Source: a bacterium
Lineage (GTDB): Bacteria > Bacteroidota > Ignavibacteria > Kapaibacteriales > UBA7675
Reading direction: 5' to 3'
Assembly: GCA_030426285.1 (NCBI GenBank)
Contig: JAUHYX010000004.1
Span: forward strand, 1 to 34,321
Length of the DNA: 34,321 nt
A program made the position numbers and the translations under genes. The notes beneath the pieces are model-generated. The model was not told the DNA's origin. It did not search any database and saw only the letters and a program-made list of their open reading frames with translations. Numbering within the stretch: position 1 is the stretch's first letter; each line of letters begins with the position of its first letter. This document shows positions 9,370-26,426 of the stretch, piece by piece.

Positions 9370-10041
9370 TTACAAGTGCAGGCCGCATTCGGTTTTTGAA
9401 TGACCGGACCAGCGGCCTGTTCTGCTTTTCCCCCGATGTGTGCACTGCGAACAACCAATTGATTCAAACCCCTTGTTGGCCAGCGGGTGTCGTGGAACGT
9501 GCAACTCATCAAAATGTAGAATGGCTTGATCTTCGGTAAGATCGATAAGAGGGTGAATCCTCACAATATCTTCGCGATTGTGAATGATATTGAGTGAACT
9601 TCTGTGAGGTGTCTGCCAGCCCATAAGTCCCGAAACCCAGAAACTGTAGTTGTTCTTGATACGGTTGAGTGGTTCAACTTTGTTTACGTTGCAACACTCA
9701 TGTGGATTGTCTTGCCACATGCGTTGTTGTTTTGTCATTCTGTGACGCTCTGGAGAGGGGTACACCTCAACTACATTTATGCCCCATAGAGATTCCAGAG
9801 TTTTCTTGTACTCGAGTGTTTCCCTAAAATGGTATCCGGTATTAATGAAGTGGACGGTGGGCTCTTGCAGTGCATTGCATACTGCGGAAAGGAGCAGGCC
9901 AGACCATTTGCCAAACGAGGTCGTAATCAACAAGTTCTCGTGATCGATTTCATCGACAAGAAAGGGTAGGCGCGAAAAAGGAAGGAGCGCCTTACAATCA
10001 GAGTTCAGACGCTCCAAACAGTGAGTCTCTATACTTGGCAT
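9370..10041 (-). CDS. cysH: Phosphoadenylyl-/adenylylsulfate reductase-like protein (CysH family)
   Basis: LITTSFGKWSGLLL, HFINTGYHFRETLEY, CC and CSQC cluster ligands and C-terminal KTECGLH catalytic Cys motif. Confidence 0.82.
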   Translation of the reverse strand: MPSIETHCLERLNSDCKALLPFSRLPFLVDEIDHENLLITTSFGKWSGLLLSAVCNALQEPTVHFINTGYHFRETLEYKKTLESLWGINVVEVYPSPERHRMTKQQRMWQDNPHECCNVNKVEPLNRIKNNYSFWVSGLMGWQTPHRSSLNIIHNREDIVRIHPLIDLTEDQAILHFDELHVPRHPLANKGFESIGCSQCTHRGKSRTGRWSGHSKTECGLHL

Positions 10042-10769
10042 TGAGGTGCAGGTTCTTGCAGTTGCTGGTACAGGGCGATTGCTCTTGGGAACAGGATGTT
10101 GTTCTCTAAATGCACGTGTTTGTGCAAGTCAATCTCAAAGTCTCGCAAATTTGCAAACGCGACCTTGTATGTTTGACAGCCATCTTTCGGAGCGGTGTAG
10201 TCGCTGGAGAGTTCAGCAATTCTTCTGAATCGGTCACCTTCTTGCTGATGTTCTGCTTCCATAGTAGCAATTGGGTTCTCAACACTTCCGAACTGTGACT
10301 CCGGCAAATCAGTGCCATTCTTGGCTGCTTGCTCCAAACGAGTTATGTATGGAAACAGTACGAGTTCCTCTTTCATCATATGAGCCGCGAGCTCGGTTGC
10401 TGAGGCATCAAACTCCGCTCTAATTGTGTGAAGTTCTGGGTGGTTTCCACCGTGAACTCTACTCAATTTTTCAAGGTATTGTTGGATGATAGGCGTAATG
10501 CTACGCACATACTCATGATGCGTATCTTGAATTAGTCCGATCAGCGAAGTTAGCGAAAGGGAGTTGTAGTCTACTTTTGGTCGTGAGGTCAGCAGTACCT
10601 CAATCTGATTGACAACAGTCTGTTTGTCAACATTCTTACTGTCACATGCATCGCGCAGGGGAATTCCGCCGTTGCAACAGAAGTCAATGCCATACTGCGA
10701 AAACACCTGTGCAGTCTTGTAGTTTTGAGCAACAATTTTGCTCACTTTAGTATCGAGAAGATGTTCCAT
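10029..10769 (-). CDS. Iron-sulfur cluster repair di-iron protein (RIC/YtfE/ScdA family)
   Basis: FSQYGIDFCCNGGIPLRDAC N-terminal ScdA-type motif followed by hemerythrin-like HHEYV...HMMKEELVLFPYI...MEAEHQQEGD...HKHVHLENNILFPRA. Start MEHLLDTK at 10769. Confidence 0.92.
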   Translation of the reverse strand: MEHLLDTKVSKIVAQNYKTAQVFSQYGIDFCCNGGIPLRDACDSKNVDKQTVVNQIEVLLTSRPKVDYNSLSLTSLIGLIQDTHHEYVRSITPIIQQYLEKLSRVHGGNHPELHTIRAEFDASATELAAHMMKEELVLFPYITRLEQAAKNGTDLPESQFGSVENPIATMEAEHQQEGDRFRRIAELSSDYTAPKDGCQTYKVAFANLRDFEIDLHKHVHLENNILFPRAIALYQQLQEPAPQCQV

Positions 10770-10783
10770 CGTAAATTTTCCTT

Positions 10784-11212
10784 TTATCCAGATATTCGAA
10801 AATGTTGTTCTTCTAAAAGTTCTCGGGCTTCTGAGAGTGACATTGCCGCGAGGCGATTGCGGAGTGAACTCCTGATGTTGACAAACTCGGTGTGAAGTGG
10901 ACACGGATTCTCTGAACTGCACTCGGTCAATCCCAGAGCGCACCCAACAAAGTAGTCTGTACCGTCAATCGCCAATACCACATCCAGTACAGTTTTGGAA
11001 ACCTCATCATTGAGCTTGAAACCGCCGTTGGGACCGCGCACCGAGGTAACAATGTCACTCTTTACAAGAGTTTGTAAAATCTTAGATGTGAAGGCCTGGG
11101 GAATGTCGAGCTTGCTAGCTACTTCCTTTACACCTGTAAACTCACCCGCTTTCGAGCGCGAGGCGATATACAGGGCTCCACGAATTCCATATGTGCATGC
11201 TTTACTGAACAT
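10784..11212 (-). CDS. Rrf2-family transcriptional regulator with three conserved Cys
   Basis: MFSKACTYGIRGALYIA...VKEVASKLDIPQAFTSKILQTLVKSDIVTSVRGPNGGFKL; C-ALGLTEC-SSENPC cluster ligands. Confidence 0.93.
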   Translation of the reverse strand: MFSKACTYGIRGALYIASRSKAGEFTGVKEVASKLDIPQAFTSKILQTLVKSDIVTSVRGPNGGFKLNDEVSKTVLDVVLAIDGTDYFVGCALGLTECSSENPCPLHTEFVNIRSSLRNRLAAMSLSEARELLEEQHFRISG

Positions 11213-13050: not shown

Positions 13051-14493
13051 ATGAAAGTTAAGAGAAATGTCTTTGCGTATGCTACAGCATTGTGCATGGT
13101 GCTCATGCTTGTGAGTTGTGAGAACAAGACGAGTGCTTTGAAAGACAACACTAAAATCAAAACTGTTGGAACGTATGAATTGGCAGAACTGGGTGTACCT
13201 CCACATGTACCACCTCCGGTTGGAAATCGCTCCGCTAAAAAGCTTCGTGTTGAACTCGAGATCATTGAGAAAAAGGGAGAGATAGCTGAGGGGGTTGAGT
13301 ATGTGTTTTGGACATTTGGTGGCACAGTGCCGGGTTCGTTCATCCGTGGACGTGTTGGTGATGAAATTGAATTCGTTTTGAAAAATCACCCAGACAACAA
13401 GTTGCCGCATAACATTGACTTGCACGCAGTAACAGGTCAAGGTGGGGGTGCTGAAGCATCATTTGTTGCTCCAGGGCACCAAAAGACATTTAAGTTCAAA
13501 CTCATCAATCCGGGACTATACGTGTATCACTGTGCCACAGCTCCAGTTGGCATGCACATTGCCAACGGTATGTATGGCTTGATTCTCGTGGAACCAGAAG
13601 GTGGTTTGCCACCTGTTGATCGCGAATACTATGTGATGCAAGGCGACTTCTACACACAAGGAAAGCATGGTGAACCAGGTCTTCAGGCCTTTGACATGCA
13701 GAAAGCATATGACGAAGAGCCGGACTATGTACTCTTTAATGGCAAAGTTGGTGCACTTACAAATGAAGATAAACTTGTAGCCAAAGCCGGAGAGACAATC
13801 CGCTTGTTTGTGGGTAATGGTGGACCAAACTTGGTGTCTTCGTTCCACGTTATTGGCGAGATATTCGACAAGGTGTATATCGAAGGTGGTAGCGCAATCA
13901 ACAACAACGTGCAAACAACGCTCGTACCGGCTGGTGGTGCCGCTATAGTTGAACTTAAAGCCGAAGTGCCTTCAAATCTCATTTTGGTAGATCACTCTAT
14001 TTTCAGAACATTCAACAAAGGAGCCCTCGGGATTCTCAATGTTGAAGGCGAGAAGAACAACCTCGTATTCGAAGGTGAGGTTCTCGATGGGATATACAAT
14101 CCGGAAGGGGCGACTATGCACAAAGATGCCAATGTCCCAGCAACGCAAGAGGCTAAGCCGGCCGCAACCAAAGAAGAGTCAATCGCTCGCGGAAAACAAA
14201 TTTACAATAACGCATGTTTCGCTTGTCACCAACCATCCGGTGAAGGCCTTGGTACAGTGTTCCCACCTTTGGCTGGCTCAGACTTCCTGAATGCTGATAA
14301 GGACAGAGCAATAAGTGCGGTGATTCACGGACTAGAAGGCGAGATCACAGTAAACGGTCAAACATACAATAGCCAAATGCCAGCTCAGATATTGAGTGAT
14401 GAAGAGGTGGCTAATGTGATGACATTTTTGTACAACAGTTGGGGCAACAACGGAACCGTTGTTTCACCAGAAGACGTAAAGAAACTCAGATAG
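13051..14493 (+). CDS. nirK: Copper-containing nitrite reductase NirK with C-terminal cytochrome c domain
   Basis: [85 protein letters not shown] plus C-terminal [29 protein letters not shown]. Confidence 0.96.
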
Positions 14494-15320: not shown

Positions 15321-15926
15321 ATGAAGAATGTTAGTCTCATACTCCTGTTTGCTCTGAGTCTGCTCGCTTGTGAATCGAGTAGTGAAAAGGCTGAACCCCA
15401 AGAAAGTACCGAACATGCTGAGGTTTTCAGCGAAGAAGATGGTTTGTCGGTATATCAACTTACGAGCTCGTGGGAGAATCAATTCGGGGAGCAAGTTCAG
15501 CTGAACTCCCTACAAGGAAAACCAGTTGTTCTTGCCATGATTTACAGCACGTGCAAAGCGGCATGTCCGCGCCTTGTTGCAGACATGAAAGGAATTGAAG
15601 CAGATTTAGACGAACATGGAATGTCTGATGTCCATTTTGTTTTGGTAAGCATTGATCCGGAAAATGACACACCAGCAGTGATGCAAAAATTTATTGCTGA
15701 CAACAGAATGGATAAGCGGTGGACATTCCTGCGAAGCTCAGAAGAAAACACTCGCGAGTTCGCAAATATCATGGCGGTGCGCTATACGGAGATCTCTCCA
15801 ATCGATTATTCGCACTCAAATATCATCAGTCTCATCGATGAGAATGGTGTGCTGCGATTCCAGCAAGAGGGATTGGGTGTTGACAATGTAGAACTTGTTA
15901 AGAATGCTACGCTGTTGTTGCATTAG
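15321..15926 (+). CDS. SCO1/SenC family copper chaperone-like lipoprotein
   Basis: LLACESS lipobox; GKPVVLAMIYSTCKAACPRLVADMKGIEADL...FVLVSIDPENDTP with the CxxxC motif and a distal His (IDYSHSNIISLID). Confidence 0.92.
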   Translation: MKNVSLILLFALSLLACESSSEKAEPQESTEHAEVFSEEDGLSVYQLTSSWENQFGEQVQLNSLQGKPVVLAMIYSTCKAACPRLVADMKGIEADLDEHGMSDVHFVLVSIDPENDTPAVMQKFIADNRMDKRWTFLRSSEENTREFANIMAVRYTEISPIDYSHSNIISLIDENGVLRFQQEGLGVDNVELVKNATLLLH

Positions 15927-21026: not shown

Positions 21027-21386
21027 ATGAGTTTGCGCAATAATATCGCCGTACTTTTCCTCGTGTTCTCACTGTTGTTTACAGGTGTTTCCCAATTGAG
21101 TGTGTGGGGAGTGTACAGCATGAACAAGAAGGCAATTGCATCTGCGCTCTGTGAAAACGTTGCTGACCCCTGCTGTCAAGGCTCTTGTTTTGTAGAACAA
21201 TCAACCAATGCCTCAGATTCACCACTCAATCAAGTACTGACGATTGAGTTTGCTCCTTTTTTGTCTGTTTCATACATATCTGAGTTGTCCACACCCACTG
21301 AGTGTAAAGTTCTCGCTAGCGAAGTGTGCAACGCGACCACCCTTCTCGGCTGTAGCCAATCTGTGTTTCATCCTCCAGCATTGTAG
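21027..21386 (+). CDS. Small Cys-rich membrane/exported protein, putative metal-handling
   Basis: N-terminal TM segment followed by NKKAIASALCENVADPCCQGSCFVEQ, resembling the Bacteroidota pattern N-x3-Ia-x2-LCENx3PxxxCxGxCyL often found near TonB receptors. Confidence 0.6.
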   Translation: MSLRNNIAVLFLVFSLLFTGVSQLSVWGVYSMNKKAIASALCENVADPCCQGSCFVEQSTNASDSPLNQVLTIEFAPFLSVSYISELSTPTECKVLASEVCNATTLLGCSQSVFHPPAL

Positions 21387-21413
21387 GCCTTCAAACCGAC
21401 CTACAAATTTTTT
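21381..21413 (+). terminator. Terminator/attenuator-like stem-loop between 21027 ORF and lipoprotein gene
   Basis: TTGTAGG-N12-CCTACAA followed by ATTTTTT; overlaps the stop codon of the upstream ORF. Confidence 0.5.
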
Positions 21414-21435
21414 ATCACAAGCTGGAATTATAATC

Positions 21436-22221
21436 ATGAAATTCATTGCATTACTTTCGTGTACTGTTGCGCTATTCTTAATCTCTTGTTCAGACGATCC
21501 AACCTCACCAAGCACATCATCTGTGTTGGATGACTTGTACGAGCATACTACTGTCGAAGTTGAAGATATGTCCGTCACCATGTACTCGCGCGAACCGTCC
21601 CTCACAAATGGGTTTAACGAACTGCACTTTACTGTGGCTATGGACGGCGAGTTGATAGGCATTAGTCACATTGAAATAACACCTCAGATGAGCATGATGA
21701 GTGGCATGCAACACGGTGCTCCAACAGGACTCTTCTCACAGGTTGGTGAGTTTGGAATATATCGCCACGGCGTACTGTTCACAATGCCGTCGGAGTCAGA
21801 TACTTCGTGGACGTTGCAGCTCGCTATCTCAACTGTCAATCACGGCGTCGTGAGTGTTGAATTCCCAGTTGTTGTTGAGGCTGGTGGACTAGTGGACATC
21901 CTGAATGCCGGTGACAACAGGTTGTTCGCTTCCATTGAACGCAGAGCTTGGCAAGTTGGCAAGCAGTCATTTGACTTGTATATGTACAGCCCGCAGCACC
22001 ACGATTTCGATCCCCTGAGTGTTGATTCACTCGAGTTTTATCCGTGGATGGGAAGCATGGGACATGGCTCAAGTGGTAATGTACAGCCCGTAGAAATTGA
22101 AGCTGGGAAGTACAGTGGCGAAGTCAATTTTAGCATGACGGGACCTTGGCAGATGCATGTTGTGCTGCACAGTGGTGAGTTTGCTGGTGACACGTTAACA
22201 TTTGAAGTTGATGTGCAATGA
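21436..22221 (+). CDS. Lipoprotein with two YtkA/FixH-like beta domains carrying Met/His-rich motifs
   Basis: FLISCSDDP lipobox; repeated PQMSMMSGMQHGAP and PWMGSMGHGSSG motifs. Confidence 0.65.
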   Translation: MKFIALLSCTVALFLISCSDDPTSPSTSSVLDDLYEHTTVEVEDMSVTMYSREPSLTNGFNELHFTVAMDGELIGISHIEITPQMSMMSGMQHGAPTGLFSQVGEFGIYRHGVLFTMPSESDTSWTLQLAISTVNHGVVSVEFPVVVEAGGLVDILNAGDNRLFASIERRAWQVGKQSFDLYMYSPQHHDFDPLSVDSLEFYPWMGSMGHGSSGNVQPVEIEAGKYSGEVNFSMTGPWQMHVVLHSGEFAGDTLTFEVDVQ

Positions 22222-24125
22222 GTACACCCACATATCGCCTATTGTTGGTCGCGCTCGTTGCCGCGTGCTTTGGCTTGCCAACTGGTGAGCTGACCGCAGC
22301 GGAAGAGCAAGACAGCATCGTGCTTGTTGTAGCTGAAGTTGACGAAACTGAAGAACCAGGTGTTCACGACAATTGCGTGCATATCCCCGGTGTAGTTCAC
22401 ACTATGCCGGGAGATGCCTTTTCGCAGATTTCGGTTCGCGGAAGACTGCCTCATGAAAGCAAAACAACGCTGAATGATATTGAAGTGCATGCCGCTTGTA
22501 TTGACGGCATGGAACCCGCACATACGTTATTTACAGACTTTGCTCAGTTTGATGTGATGGGAGGCATCGGCAATGGTCGTGCCGCAGAGTTCACTACCCG
22601 TGTGGCCAAAGTGGAAGAGTTGGAAGCATCCGTAGCGCTTAGGGCCGGAGTGATGCGATCGCTCTACAAAGCAGATGTACGTGCAGCTGCACCCGTAGGT
22701 TCAGGGGCGATTGTAACACATGGATTCATTGCAATGGATGGGAACTATGAGGATGGAAATGGACGCACTGTGGCCGATTCATCCACCCGAGGCGGATTGG
22801 CGTTGCAATGGCAATCAGATCAACTGAGTGCAGGGTACATCGGTCAGTTCACAGGGTTCAATGCCTACGCACAACTCCTGATGGATACTCGCCATTCACG
22901 AAGTAATTTGATGTGGACAACGCTGAAAGTTCTAGAGAACGAAGCAACTTCTCTTGCAGTTACAGCCCATGCGCAGTTTATGTATCATGAAATGGACGAC
23001 TACAACCGGACGCAGCAAGAGATTCGCAACCGTGAATTCATGCCCAACATGTATATGCCCATGTATTCACATCGCAGCAATGTAGGTGTGCGTACACAGG
23101 CCGTGTTTTCAGATAGCAACACGATTCGTACAATCACGATGTCCGCAACAACTGAGAAGTGGGACGCAGATATGGATATGATTGCCATGGAAACTGCTCA
23201 AGAAGCATCGTGGATGTCCAATATTGCCAATGTCGAACGACATCGTATCGTTGCTTCTGCCGAGCAGTCATGGCAGTTCGCACACCATTGGCTTGCGGTG
23301 AAGATCGGTCTTGAAGCTGAGGCATCTCATTTGTTGGATAGGCGCGGTGCTCGCATGCTCGCGGGTTGGGTAGGTGAGGTTGAGCCACGGTCGTTTCTGT
23401 CACCGTTTGCCGAGATTGAATACGGCACAAACACCGATCAATCTACCTCGAAACTTGCGTTTGTGATAGAGCGAGTTGTCCCGACAGAACGAGAACTCTA
23501 TGCATTCTTCTTCTCGGATCCATATGACGAGGTTGCTATTGTAGGTAATCCTAGATTGCAAGGTGCGGTGGAAACCAGTCTTTCTTACTCGCACACACTG
23601 CAACTCAGCCGCTACTGGAGTGTAGAGTCGACGTTGTGGACGGATCTGAATACGGATGAGATTCGCGCCCTCGGCGATGAGGTCAAGCAGTATCAACACA
23701 TTGGCACCGCGGTTGGTGCTGGCGCAACGAGTTCACTCCTTTTTGATGGACCTACTGTTGGGCTCAGGTTTTCCGCTGATATTCATAGTCGGTACTCATG
23801 TGATCTAGAAACATGGCTGCCCACATATTCGCAGCCATCACTGGCGAATGATATTGTGTTTAGTCTTGATGACATCGAATGTGGGCTAAGTACCGTTGTG
23901 TACCTGAAATCCCCATTTGAGTCAGACTTGCTGCACAAAGAGTTGGCAAATCAGACGGCTGTTGTTTCGAGTTTGCGGACTTCTTTTCGCGTATTATCAT
24001 CGCTTTCTGCTCATGCAGAAATGTACAATCTTTTTGATACGTTTTTTGTACCGCGAGGCGCATCACGACATGTTCCAATGCCAGGGAGATATCTCTCTCT
24101 CTCGCTGAACTGGGAGGTGATGTAG
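22218..24125 (+). CDS. TonB-dependent receptor-like outer membrane protein, copper-receptor-like (NosA/OprC type)
   Basis: Plug-like ISVRGRLPHESKTTLNDIEVHAACIDGMEP; barrel FMYHEMDDYNRTQ resembling the HxMDNYSLR motif of TonB-copper receptors; C-terminal FDTFFVPRGASRHVPMPGRYLSLSLNWEV. Confidence 0.72.
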   Translation: MSTPTYRLLLVALVAACFGLPTGELTAAEEQDSIVLVVAEVDETEEPGVHDNCVHIPGVVHTMPGDAFSQISVRGRLPHESKTTLNDIEVHAACIDGMEPAHTLFTDFAQFDVMGGIGNGRAAEFTTRVAKVEELEASVALRAGVMRSLYKADVRAAAPVGSGAIVTHGFIAMDGNYEDGNGRTVADSSTRGGLALQWQSDQLSAGYIGQFTGFNAYAQLLMDTRHSRSNLMWTTLKVLENEATSLAVTAHAQFMYHEMDDYNRTQQEIRNREFMPNMYMPMYSHRSNVGVRTQAVFSDSNTIRTITMSATTEKWDADMDMIAMETAQEASWMSNIANVERHRIVASAEQSWQFAHHWLAVKIGLEAEASHLLDRRGARMLAGWVGEVEPRSFLSPFAEIEYGTNTDQSTSKLAFVIERVVPTERELYAFFFSDPYDEVAIVGNPRLQGAVETSLSYSHTLQLSRYWSVESTLWTDLNTDEIRALGDEVKQYQHIGTAVGAGATSSLLFDGPTVGLRFSADIHSRYSCDLETWLPTYSQPSLANDIVFSLDDIECGLSTVVYLKSPFESDLLHKELANQTAVVSSLRTSFRVLSSLSAHAEMYNLFDTFFVPRGASRHVPMPGRYLSLSLNWEVM

Positions 24126-24242: not shown

Positions 24243-26426
24243 ATGAAACCTGTTTTACGAAGTTCTTTGTATGCGTTGCTACTCATTTTTTTCGCAGTGC
24301 CTGAAAACATTCAAGCCTTCTTTTGTCCCGGCATAGCCTTGAAGGTTGACCTAGGTGAGATGTCTGAAGTAGTCCTTGAAGGCGATGGATTCTCGCGCGG
24401 TAATTTTCTTGCCATGGAGTACGATCCGGAGTTTCTGGAATTTGAGTCCACGTATCTTGAAGACAAGTTAGAAGGGCGTTTTATGGTAACGGGAATTAAA
24501 GCAGGGGTGACTACTGCGAAATTCCATTGGGAGTTTACCGACAAGAGTGACGAGGGTGTGTGTGAAGTAGAATTTACGATTGAATCCAATGGCCTTGACC
24601 GTGAGGCAATGAAGACCCGTTTGGGAGAATACATCGGATTCAAGGGGTATAACCTAGACGACATTTGGGCCTTCTCACCTCAGGAACCATTGGAGACAGG
24701 AACTATCGTGGCTAGTGCAGATGGCGAGGTCGAAGTTGAGGTGAACCAACCAGCTTGGCTCGCTTGGATTGACCTCAATAAAGATGTGCGTTTCGGCCAC
24801 CCTGGAGATCTTGTGTTTATCGACCAACAAAGCGGCGAGATAACGTCATATGACACAAAGTTTTGGCCGATTATTGATGGCAATCCGTATTTGTCGCTGT
24901 TTGGTGATAGGCTGATATCCAACGACTTGATTTGCGGAACTCCGCCTGAGCCTTTGGACGAAGAGATTACCACCACAATCGAGGAAGAGGAAGTACCGGA
25001 GCAGCGGGATTCTGTGTGTGCCGTTCTTGTGAGTGGCTCAGCAGACACTGAGAGGCAAGAAGAGGCATTTTCTCAAGATATTGAATTCATGAAAAAGAAT
25101 CTGATGCTAGAAAGCATGGGGCCGCGTTTGGCTGAAGAAAACATAGAAGTAATGCACAATGCCTCGAAGCTTGAGATCAGAAATAAACTCGAATCAATGG
25201 CTGGCAAGTACAAGAAAGTGTATTTCTATTACTCAGGTCACGGAAGCGACGGGTATATGGTGACAAACGACGAAGTTGGCGAAGGCATGTTATATGCAAG
25301 CCTGGCTAGTGCTCTCGATGTGTCCCGAGCGGAAGAAGTTTGTGTGGTTATTGATGCTTGTCGATCTGGCTCCGCAATACGCGCTTTTGAGAATTGGCCG
25401 GGCCTACGAGACCAATCGATCGAAGTCTTTACGGCATGCAGCAATGACACGTCTTCATGGACTAGAAACATCTCAACAGGTGGTGAAGTTGTTCGTGTTG
25501 GTGAATACACATGGGCATTTGTACAGTGTTTTGGCGATCCTGATGCTGACAAAAATGATGATGGCATGACTTCCTTTATGGAAGCTCACGAATGGCTCCT
25601 AGAACAGAATGTAGAACTCGGTGTGGGTGGAACTATCAATGAAAGAATGAGGCCACAGCGCTACAAGCATGAATCTCGTCCTATCACAGAACGCGAAGCC
25701 GTGTTCGAAGAATTGGATTTCTACATTGAACTCGACGAAGAATTGGACCCGAATGACACAAACTACGTTTCAGTAAGGCACAACTTTGGAAACTTTGAAT
25801 ACGAAATCGATCCCAAGATAACATTCGGCATTTTTAACTGGACATTTGATATCTATTTGAGAGATCTCGTTCACGATACGTTGCGAGTTTCAGATAGGCC
25901 ATTCCGTGTTGGCTTTGGCACAAGAGAACGGGTTCAAGACACCAATGCATCAAACCAACCTGCAGTCGGAGTTGCAGACACCGTGAACAACAGTTGGACA
26001 ATTGGTCCAAATATCGAGTTTGACGCAAGTGCAGGAAGGGTGTATAGTGGCCCGTTTCACAGTGGTACAAGAGTGACGTTTGTACAGCAACAAGTGGAAC
26101 CCAATTCTGTGGCAGATGAAGAGAAGACAACTTCAGATTGGCTAACACTGTTCCAGAACTATCCAAACCCTATTGTTGGTAACACCACAAGCATACCAAT
26201 AAAATTGCAGAAATCTGCGACAGTCTTTCTCGATATACATACGATTGGTGGAGAGCAAGTGTACCGCAGTTCTGCCACACAGCTGCATGCAGGAGAACAC
26301 TTCTTGGATGTGCCGGAGACTGCGCTTGCAGACATTGCTAATCAGGTGTTGGTATATACGGTTCGCGCACAGTCAGGCGCGCAAACATTGGTGCTTAGTC
26401 GAAAGCTCATGACGGGAGCAAACTAG
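24243..26426 (+). CDS. Secreted caspase-like (clan CD, C14-type) peptidase with T9SS-like C-terminal domain
   Basis: Signal peptide; YKKVYFYYSGHGSDGYMV and EEVCVVIDACRSGSAIRAF His/Cys catalytic motifs; C-terminal LTLFQNYPNPIVGNTTSIPIKL...QTLVLSRKLMTG. Confidence 0.82.
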   Translation: MKPVLRSSLYALLLIFFAVPENIQAFFCPGIALKVDLGEMSEVVLEGDGFSRGNFLAMEYDPEFLEFESTYLEDKLEGRFMVTGIKAGVTTAKFHWEFTDKSDEGVCEVEFTIESNGLDREAMKTRLGEYIGFKGYNLDDIWAFSPQEPLETGTIVASADGEVEVEVNQPAWLAWIDLNKDVRFGHPGDLVFIDQQSGEITSYDTKFWPIIDGNPYLSLFGDRLISNDLICGTPPEPLDEEITTTIEEEEVPEQRDSVCAVLVSGSADTERQEEAFSQDIEFMKKNLMLESMGPRLAEENIEVMHNASKLEIRNKLESMAGKYKKVYFYYSGHGSDGYMVTNDEVGEGMLYASLASALDVSRAEEVCVVIDACRSGSAIRAFENWPGLRDQSIEVFTACSNDTSSWTRNISTGGEVVRVGEYTWAFVQCFGDPDADKNDDGMTSFMEAHEWLLEQNVELGVGGTINERMRPQRYKHESRPITEREAVFEELDFYIELDEELDPNDTNYVSVRHNFGNFEYEIDPKITFGIFNWTFDIYLRDLVHDTLRVSDRPFRVGFGTRERVQDTNASNQPAVGVADTVNNSWTIGPNIEFDASAGRVYSGPFHSGTRVTFVQQQVEPNSVADEEKTTSDWLTLFQNYPNPIVGNTTSIPIKLQKSATVFLDIHTIGGEQVYRSSATQLHAGEHFLDVPETALADIANQVLVYTVRAQSGAQTLVLSRKLMTGAN

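Follow-up and report, generated by a model that had tools for sequence, protein, structure and literature searches.

A putative copper-uptake operon in a Kapaibacteriales bacterium: an OprC-type receptor, a YtkA-like lipoprotein and a candidate copper-sensing leader

Results

The locus and its surroundings

The window, that is, the whole 34,321-nucleotide stretch of DNA analysed here, comes from a bacterium of the order Kapaibacteriales and contains three consecutive intact open reading frames (ORFs) on the plus strand. These encode a small Cys-rich protein, a Met/His-rich lipoprotein and a TonB-dependent receptor (Table 1). Between the first and second genes there is a gap of 49 nt; the second gene shares its last 4 nt with the third. 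A CoA-transferase gene and a gene for a small membrane protein lie upstream, the stop codon of the latter being 2 nt from the start of the first ORF, and nadA is also found upstream of the unit. The gene directly 3' of the unit, at 24243-26426, was excluded from it; this gene encodes a caspase-like secreted protein whose C-terminal signal is probably for type IX secretion.

A sequence-only reading of this DNA had described the three genes as a copper-acquisition triad and had quoted motifs from them. The genes and motifs are present, and the motifs are more than chance occurrences, with a set of residues in the receptor and in the lipoprotein that are invariant in their families. Two features were seen beyond that reading: paired Pro codons before the stop codon of the first gene and a hairpin between the first and second genes.

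Table 1. Features of the copper locus and a likely client gene in the window
Feature	Position	Strand	Evidence
Leader ORF for a small exported Cys-rich protein of 119 aa; proposed to sense copper as a nascent chain	21027..21386	+	Family in same position in relatives
LCENVADPCCQGSC codons, putative copper-binding Cys cluster	21147..21188	+	C-x-N...C-x-G-x-C conserved in leader family
His-Pro-Pro codons, two residues before leader end; putative stall motif	21369..21377	+	Pro-Pro counts among head ORFs
RNA hairpin: CCAGC (21375-21379) + TTGTAGG (21381-21387) with CCTACAA (21400-21406) + GCTGG (21421-21425)	21375..21425	+	Base pairing
Two-domain YtkA-like lipoprotein, 261 aa, Met/His loops	21436..22221	+	PF13115 E 1.5e-13
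OprC/NosA-type TonB-dependent copper receptor, 635 aa, carries FMYHEMDDYNR and MPNMYMPMYSH	22218..24125	+	Family profile, fold, ligands
Plug CxxxM: C94, M98 = OprC C143, M147	22497..22511	+	Alignment
Barrel HxM: H257, M259 = OprC H323, M325	22986..22994	+	Alignment
NirK fused to C-terminal cytochrome c, likely copper client	13054..14493	+	TIGR02376 344 bits vs cut-off 296

The receptor

The single receptor sequence gave no match in Pfam or NCBIfam, and phmmer against the PDB returned nothing relevant. It also gave no hit with the OprC/NosA model TIGR01778, whose curated cut-off is 472 bits. A receptor profile was made from an alignment of 18 members, which are ~20% identical to the window protein and were collected by whole-protein similarity alone, with no motif pattern. 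Homologues were present in 18 of the 80 genomes searched, counting the window genome and mostly within the same order, and the window genome has one copy only. When the family profile was compared with the PDB, OprC came first (E 5e-49), ahead by ~80 bits, and the heme receptor PhuR (7e-25), ZnuD (7e-16) and BtuB (1e-15) followed. This is the opposite of a grouping with siderophore or cobalamin receptors, which the sequence-only reading had named as the outcome that would count against it. TIGR01778 ranked first for all five relatives tested, the best of which scored 142 bits against the 472 required. Against a family profile built without it, the window receptor scored 220 bits, and it is the most divergent member of the family. 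A structural model of the window receptor (pLDDT 77, with a weaker plug) matched OprC structures at ranks 1-26, with a TM of ~0.77.

Eight residues (C94, M98, H257, M259, M280, M282, M319 and M321) are invariant in the 18 receptors. The AC-x-D-x-M motif of the family aligns with OprC C143/M147, and H-x-MDD aligns with OprC H323/M325. In the profile alignment, the methionine track is conserved as well, with M222, M275, M280 and M282 corresponding to OprC M286, M339, M341 and M343. The copper site and methionine track of OprC have been described previously (PMC8610252). The CxxxM-HxM set is complete in 79 of 81 distinct receptors from a scan of the genome collection, the other two being truncated; since that scan used ACxDxMDP-type patterns, the conservation of C94/M98 there is partly due to selection, while the H and M residues were not selected. 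From these comparisons, the receptor appears to be a distant but clear relative of OprC. It is predicted to work like OprC with the same ligands and to transport copper, yet it lies outside the curated TIGR01778 equivalog.

The lipoprotein

The second gene encodes a YtkA-like protein that scored 51.6 bits against PF13115 (gathering cut-off 25.9) and is the sole protein of this type in the window genome. Its two Met/His clusters read MSMMSGMQH and MGSMGHGS, and M205, M208, H210, G211 and S212, which form an MxxMxHGS loop, are invariant in the family. The structural model has two beta-sandwich domains (pLDDT 87). The best match to a copper protein in Foldseek was Helicobacter CrdA, in both the apo and silver-bound forms, with a TM of 0.70 on the target. 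Other Foldseek matches were mostly generic Ig-like folds that superposed poorly, and these were disregarded. A phmmer search of the single lipoprotein against the PDB gave nothing. CrdA binds copper (PMC9182242), and YtkA/CtaK aids CuA assembly at low copper in Bacillus (PMC13344008, PMC9145763). In 61 of the 72 loci with enough upstream DNA, the lipoprotein gene lies near the receptor gene, on its upstream side and in the same orientation. We propose that it is a copper chaperone or a partner of the receptor.

The leader ORF

By inspection, the small protein has an N-terminal hydrophobic segment, a Cys cluster and the end HPPAL-stop; the membrane anchor and the Cys cluster are conserved across its family. 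It matched nothing in Pfam or NCBIfam, including DUF2946. DUF2946 is the CruR/CutF family, in which CruR serves as the copper-sensing leader of an operon for a TonB receptor (PMC9426467). In Pseudomonas aeruginosa, oprC is preceded by a cruR homologue (PMC9426467). CruR halts translation once its two Pro codons occupy the P and A sites (PMC12992588). CutF acts on the gene downstream of it by way of a stem-loop that covers the ribosome-binding site (PMC9973294).

In relatives, the slot at the head of the operon is taken by the window family, by one of three others that are specific to Balneolales, Rhodothermales or Calditrichota-type bacteria, or by unclassified ORFs. The four families are mutually unrelated, and all of them are small proteins with a hydrophobic start, Cys/His clusters and Pro-Pro near the stop. 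Of the 41 head ORFs in these families, 40 have Pro-Pro within their final 10 residues, compared to 29 of 1067 (2.7%) other ORFs in the same loci. The Rhodothermales leader of locus L080 fell just under the DUF2946 cut-off of 23.7 bits (22.7 bits, E 1.7e-4). Rhodothermales leaders end in RGPP or RAPP; the window leader has FHPP, without the RAPP/RGPP core.

A leader or nos genes were found in 52 of the 56 lipoprotein-bearing loci with enough upstream DNA. Seven loci (L027, L028, L029, L030, L035, L038 and L044) have the YtkA-receptor pair between nosL and nosD and no leader ORF. The leader is therefore not obligatory, and copper control must differ in those seven nos clusters.

The hairpin between leader and lipoprotein

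The 5' arm of the window hairpin consists of the Pro-Ala-Leu-stop codons of the leader, and 10 nt separate the end of the 3' arm from the lipoprotein ATG at 21436. Shuffling gave p values of 0.011-0.15 for this hairpin, according to the arm window, and it has no close relatives for covariation. Its geometry is the same as that of the Balneolales loci, where all nine have an 8-15 bp stem with the 5' arm on the leader stop codon and a 3' arm that stops 7-15 nt short of the lipoprotein start. The Balneolales arms differ in sequence between genomes, and in total each arm pairs better with its own partner than with swapped ones (permutation p 0.0002). Among control gene pairs, 5 of 119 had an equally good stem in that position. 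These results make a strong case for the hairpin in Balneolales, and the hairpin in the window is suggestive.

Elsewhere the picture varies. Locus L031 has a perfect stem reaching into the start codon (p 0.004-0.01), and no stem was found in L036, L066 and L102, which have short gaps. The two family-level relatives of the window have gaps of 340-355 nt with no clear hairpin, and many other relatives also have long gaps.

Given a standard ribosome footprint, a ribosome whose P and A sites are occupied by the Pro codons at 21372-21377 would cover the RNA to ~21387, which is the whole 5' arm. A run of six T residues at 21408-21413, after the inner stem, allows the window hairpin to be read as an intrinsic terminator as well. 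A scanner for intrinsic terminators missed it because the loop exceeds 8 nt.

Copper neighbourhoods in relatives and likely clients

Genes of nitrous oxide reduction (nos) lie near the receptor in 17 of 81 loci, and in several relatives the pair is embedded in the order nosZ-nosB-nosL-YtkA-receptor-nosD-nosF-nosY. MbnP and MauG are neighbours in 12-14 loci; in Rhodothermales and Thermochlorobacter, these are MbnP (PF20243, E 1e-30) and a MauG-type protein. With two independent copper neighbourhoods, a copper substrate is very likely for the receptor. The OprC/NosA-type copper receptor claimed by the sequence-only reading is thus strongly supported by the OprC match, the conserved ligands and relatives that lie inside nos clusters or beside MbnP.

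Some loci depart from these arrangements. In L031, the order is nosB-nosL-nosD-nosF-nosY-nadA-leader-YtkA-receptor, with nadA between nosY and the leader. No nosZ was found in that genome, which has nosBLDFY; the contig ends at nosB, and nosZ may be absent from the assembly. Eight metagenome-assembled genomes (MAGs) of hot-spring type Bacteroidia (L103, L104, L107, L109, L112, L113, L115 and L118) have the receptor without the lipoprotein, in most cases behind genes for uracil phosphoribosyltransferase and a small membrane protein.

A direct link to nos in the window genome was rejected, since no nosZ was found there. The nirK/SCO block that had been noted upstream of the copper unit is real: NirK scores above the TIGR02376 cut-off, and SCO1, at 15321-15926 (Pfam E 3.5e-19), lies ~5.1 kb upstream of the unit. 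The window genome has one COX1 and no COX2 was found in it; COX1 is presumably cbb3-like for this reason. Because the host is without nosZ and a CuA oxidase, the copper clients are probably NirK and the CuB of the cbb3-like oxidase, with SCO as an assembly factor. Proximity makes copper supply to NirK plausible. NirK without nosZ and without a CuA oxidase amounts to a truncated denitrification pathway. Adjoining the nirK block, at 10029-11212 on the minus strand, are genes for an RIC/YtfE iron-sulfur repair protein and an Rrf2-family (NsrR-like) regulator, a pair likely involved in nitrosative-stress control.

Discussion

The three genes probably constitute a copper-uptake operon in which an OprC-type receptor and a YtkA lipoprotein are controlled by a copper-sensing leader that serves as the operon's own switch. 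The basis for this is homology, conserved ligands, gene order, the terminal Pro-Pro and a hairpin that covaries in one branch, from which we infer that copper is transported and sensed, that the ribosome stalls, which way regulation runs and which proteins are the clients. In the proposed mechanism, the receptor would bind copper ions at the CxxxM-HxM site, fed by the methionine track, and import them across the outer membrane in a TonB-driven manner. The lipoprotein would take this copper and pass it on via its Met/His loops to periplasmic copper enzymes, probably NirK and the cbb3-like oxidase. The leader would be short-lived, and its Cys cluster would sample copper during export. At low copper, a ribosome would pause at the terminal Pro-Pro and cover the 5' arm of the hairpin, and the lipoprotein and receptor would be made. 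Copper bound to the nascent Cys cluster would relieve the pause, the hairpin would then form over the lipoprotein start (or transcription would terminate), and the operon would be turned off. The CruR direction of regulation is expected here because the operon imports copper.

Another possibility is that the first gene yields a stable copper binder, periplasmic or anchored in the membrane, that hands copper to the lipoprotein or to enzymes and has no role as a leader. The conserved Cys cluster and membrane anchor favor this, as do the fact that much of the protein can be aligned beyond its end and the many relatives whose long gaps have no obvious hairpin. However, at least four small families with no relationship to one another occupy the slot, and an export signal, Cys/His residues and the terminal Pro-Pro are all that they have in common. 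This would be odd for a chaperone and is expected for a leader, and the covarying hairpin in Balneolales also argues against a stable binder. We therefore consider this explanation rather unlikely. The product of the first gene probably senses copper as a nascent chain and is not a copper chaperone; the position of the gene, the terminal Pro-Pro and the hairpin after the gene are the reasons for reading it as a regulatory leader. Thus, the receptor and lipoprotein part of the copper-acquisition triad holds, but the first gene is less likely to be a metal-binding acquisition protein than a leader.

The substrate can also be questioned. Receptor-lipoprotein pairing is common in surface-capture systems. 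By analogy, the receptor could import a copper chelate (a chalkophore or other small ligand) and the lipoprotein could be a surface partner that captures the ligand. CrtA of Bordetella provides a precedent, as it imports chelated copper (PMC12914433). All the OprC ligands and track methionines are conserved, though, which would fit direct ion binding, and the lipoprotein resembles periplasmic copper chaperones, so that uptake of a chelate seems improbable. Finally, the barrel regions match heme and siderophore receptor profiles too, as would be seen if this were an iron, heme, zinc or cobalamin receptor with incidental Met/His residues. That explanation is largely refuted and appears very remote, since a copper model came first in every member tested, OprC led by the ~80 bits given above, the ligands do not vary and copper genes lie alongside.

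Copper passage across the outer membrane is poorly known for Gram-negatives outside Proteobacteria. Nitrous oxide reduction depends on copper and is the only biological sink for that greenhouse gas, and the locus offers a defined receptor, a partner lipoprotein and a putative switch, all in a group where clade II N2O reducers are plentiful. OprC-type receptors, CruR/CutF-like leaders and YtkA chaperones are already known. As far as the literature was searched, in a collection that is incomplete, the receptor-YtkA pair, its clade II nos placement, the non-DUF2946 HPP/RPP/KPP leader families and the covarying hairpin are new, and no paper on YtkA, TonB and nos combined was found in it. An earlier survey may already include some of the leader families in its CutF-like clusters; it describes CruR/CutF-like leaders as numerous in Bacteroidota and TonB-like neighbours as common (PMC9973294). 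Surveys based on RAPP/RGPP found copper-related leaders to be missing from Bacteroidota (PMC12992588), a gap that non-RAPP ends could explain.

The existence of unrelated families suggests repeated, independent origins of copper-sensing leader peptides. More tentatively, and with real doubt on our part, several unrelated families of copper-sensing arrest peptides in Bacteroidota, Rhodothermota and Calditrichota, ending in HPP, RPP, QPP or KPP and not RAPP/RGPP, may act together with a hairpin over the next start to control a receptor-lipoprotein module for copper import that can be plugged into nos clusters. If true, the arrest motif would be new, and so would the receptor-YtkA copper relay.

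The proposed operon has likenesses to several known systems. As in the CruR-BfrG (CrtA) operon of Bordetella and cruR-oprC of Pseudomonas, a small Cys-containing exported leader ending in Pro-Pro precedes a copper TonB receptor. The window leader differs in not being DUF2946 and in carrying HPP, not RAPP. Only a short gap, with a putative hairpin over the next start, follows it, in contrast to the long gap and Rho-dependent termination of Bordetella. The proposed leader also resembles CutF of Rhodobacter capsulatus, an exported nascent sensor with a Cys motif, C-terminal prolines and a stem-loop that shields the next ribosome-binding site, a counterpart of which is suggestive in the window; by profile, the window leader is unrelated to CutF in sequence. 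CutF turns on a detoxifying oxidase with copper, but the downstream genes in the window are for uptake, and the opposite response is predicted. The lipoprotein shares a YtkA domain, Met/His copper-binding loops and a lipid anchor with YtkA/CtaK (PF13115) and CrdA, and differs in its two tandem domains and its genetic linkage to an outer-membrane receptor. The receptor resembles OprC/NosA of Pseudomonas (TIGR01778) in its CxxxM-HxM ligands, methionine-track positions, fold and association with denitrification. In contrast to OprC/NosA, to which it is ~16% identical, it falls far under the TIGR01778 cut-off and is paired with a YtkA lipoprotein. Its plug is also shortened: the stretch at 22497-22560 is short of ~9 residues after CxxxMxP that most relatives keep, with a possible effect on plug movement or TonB coupling.
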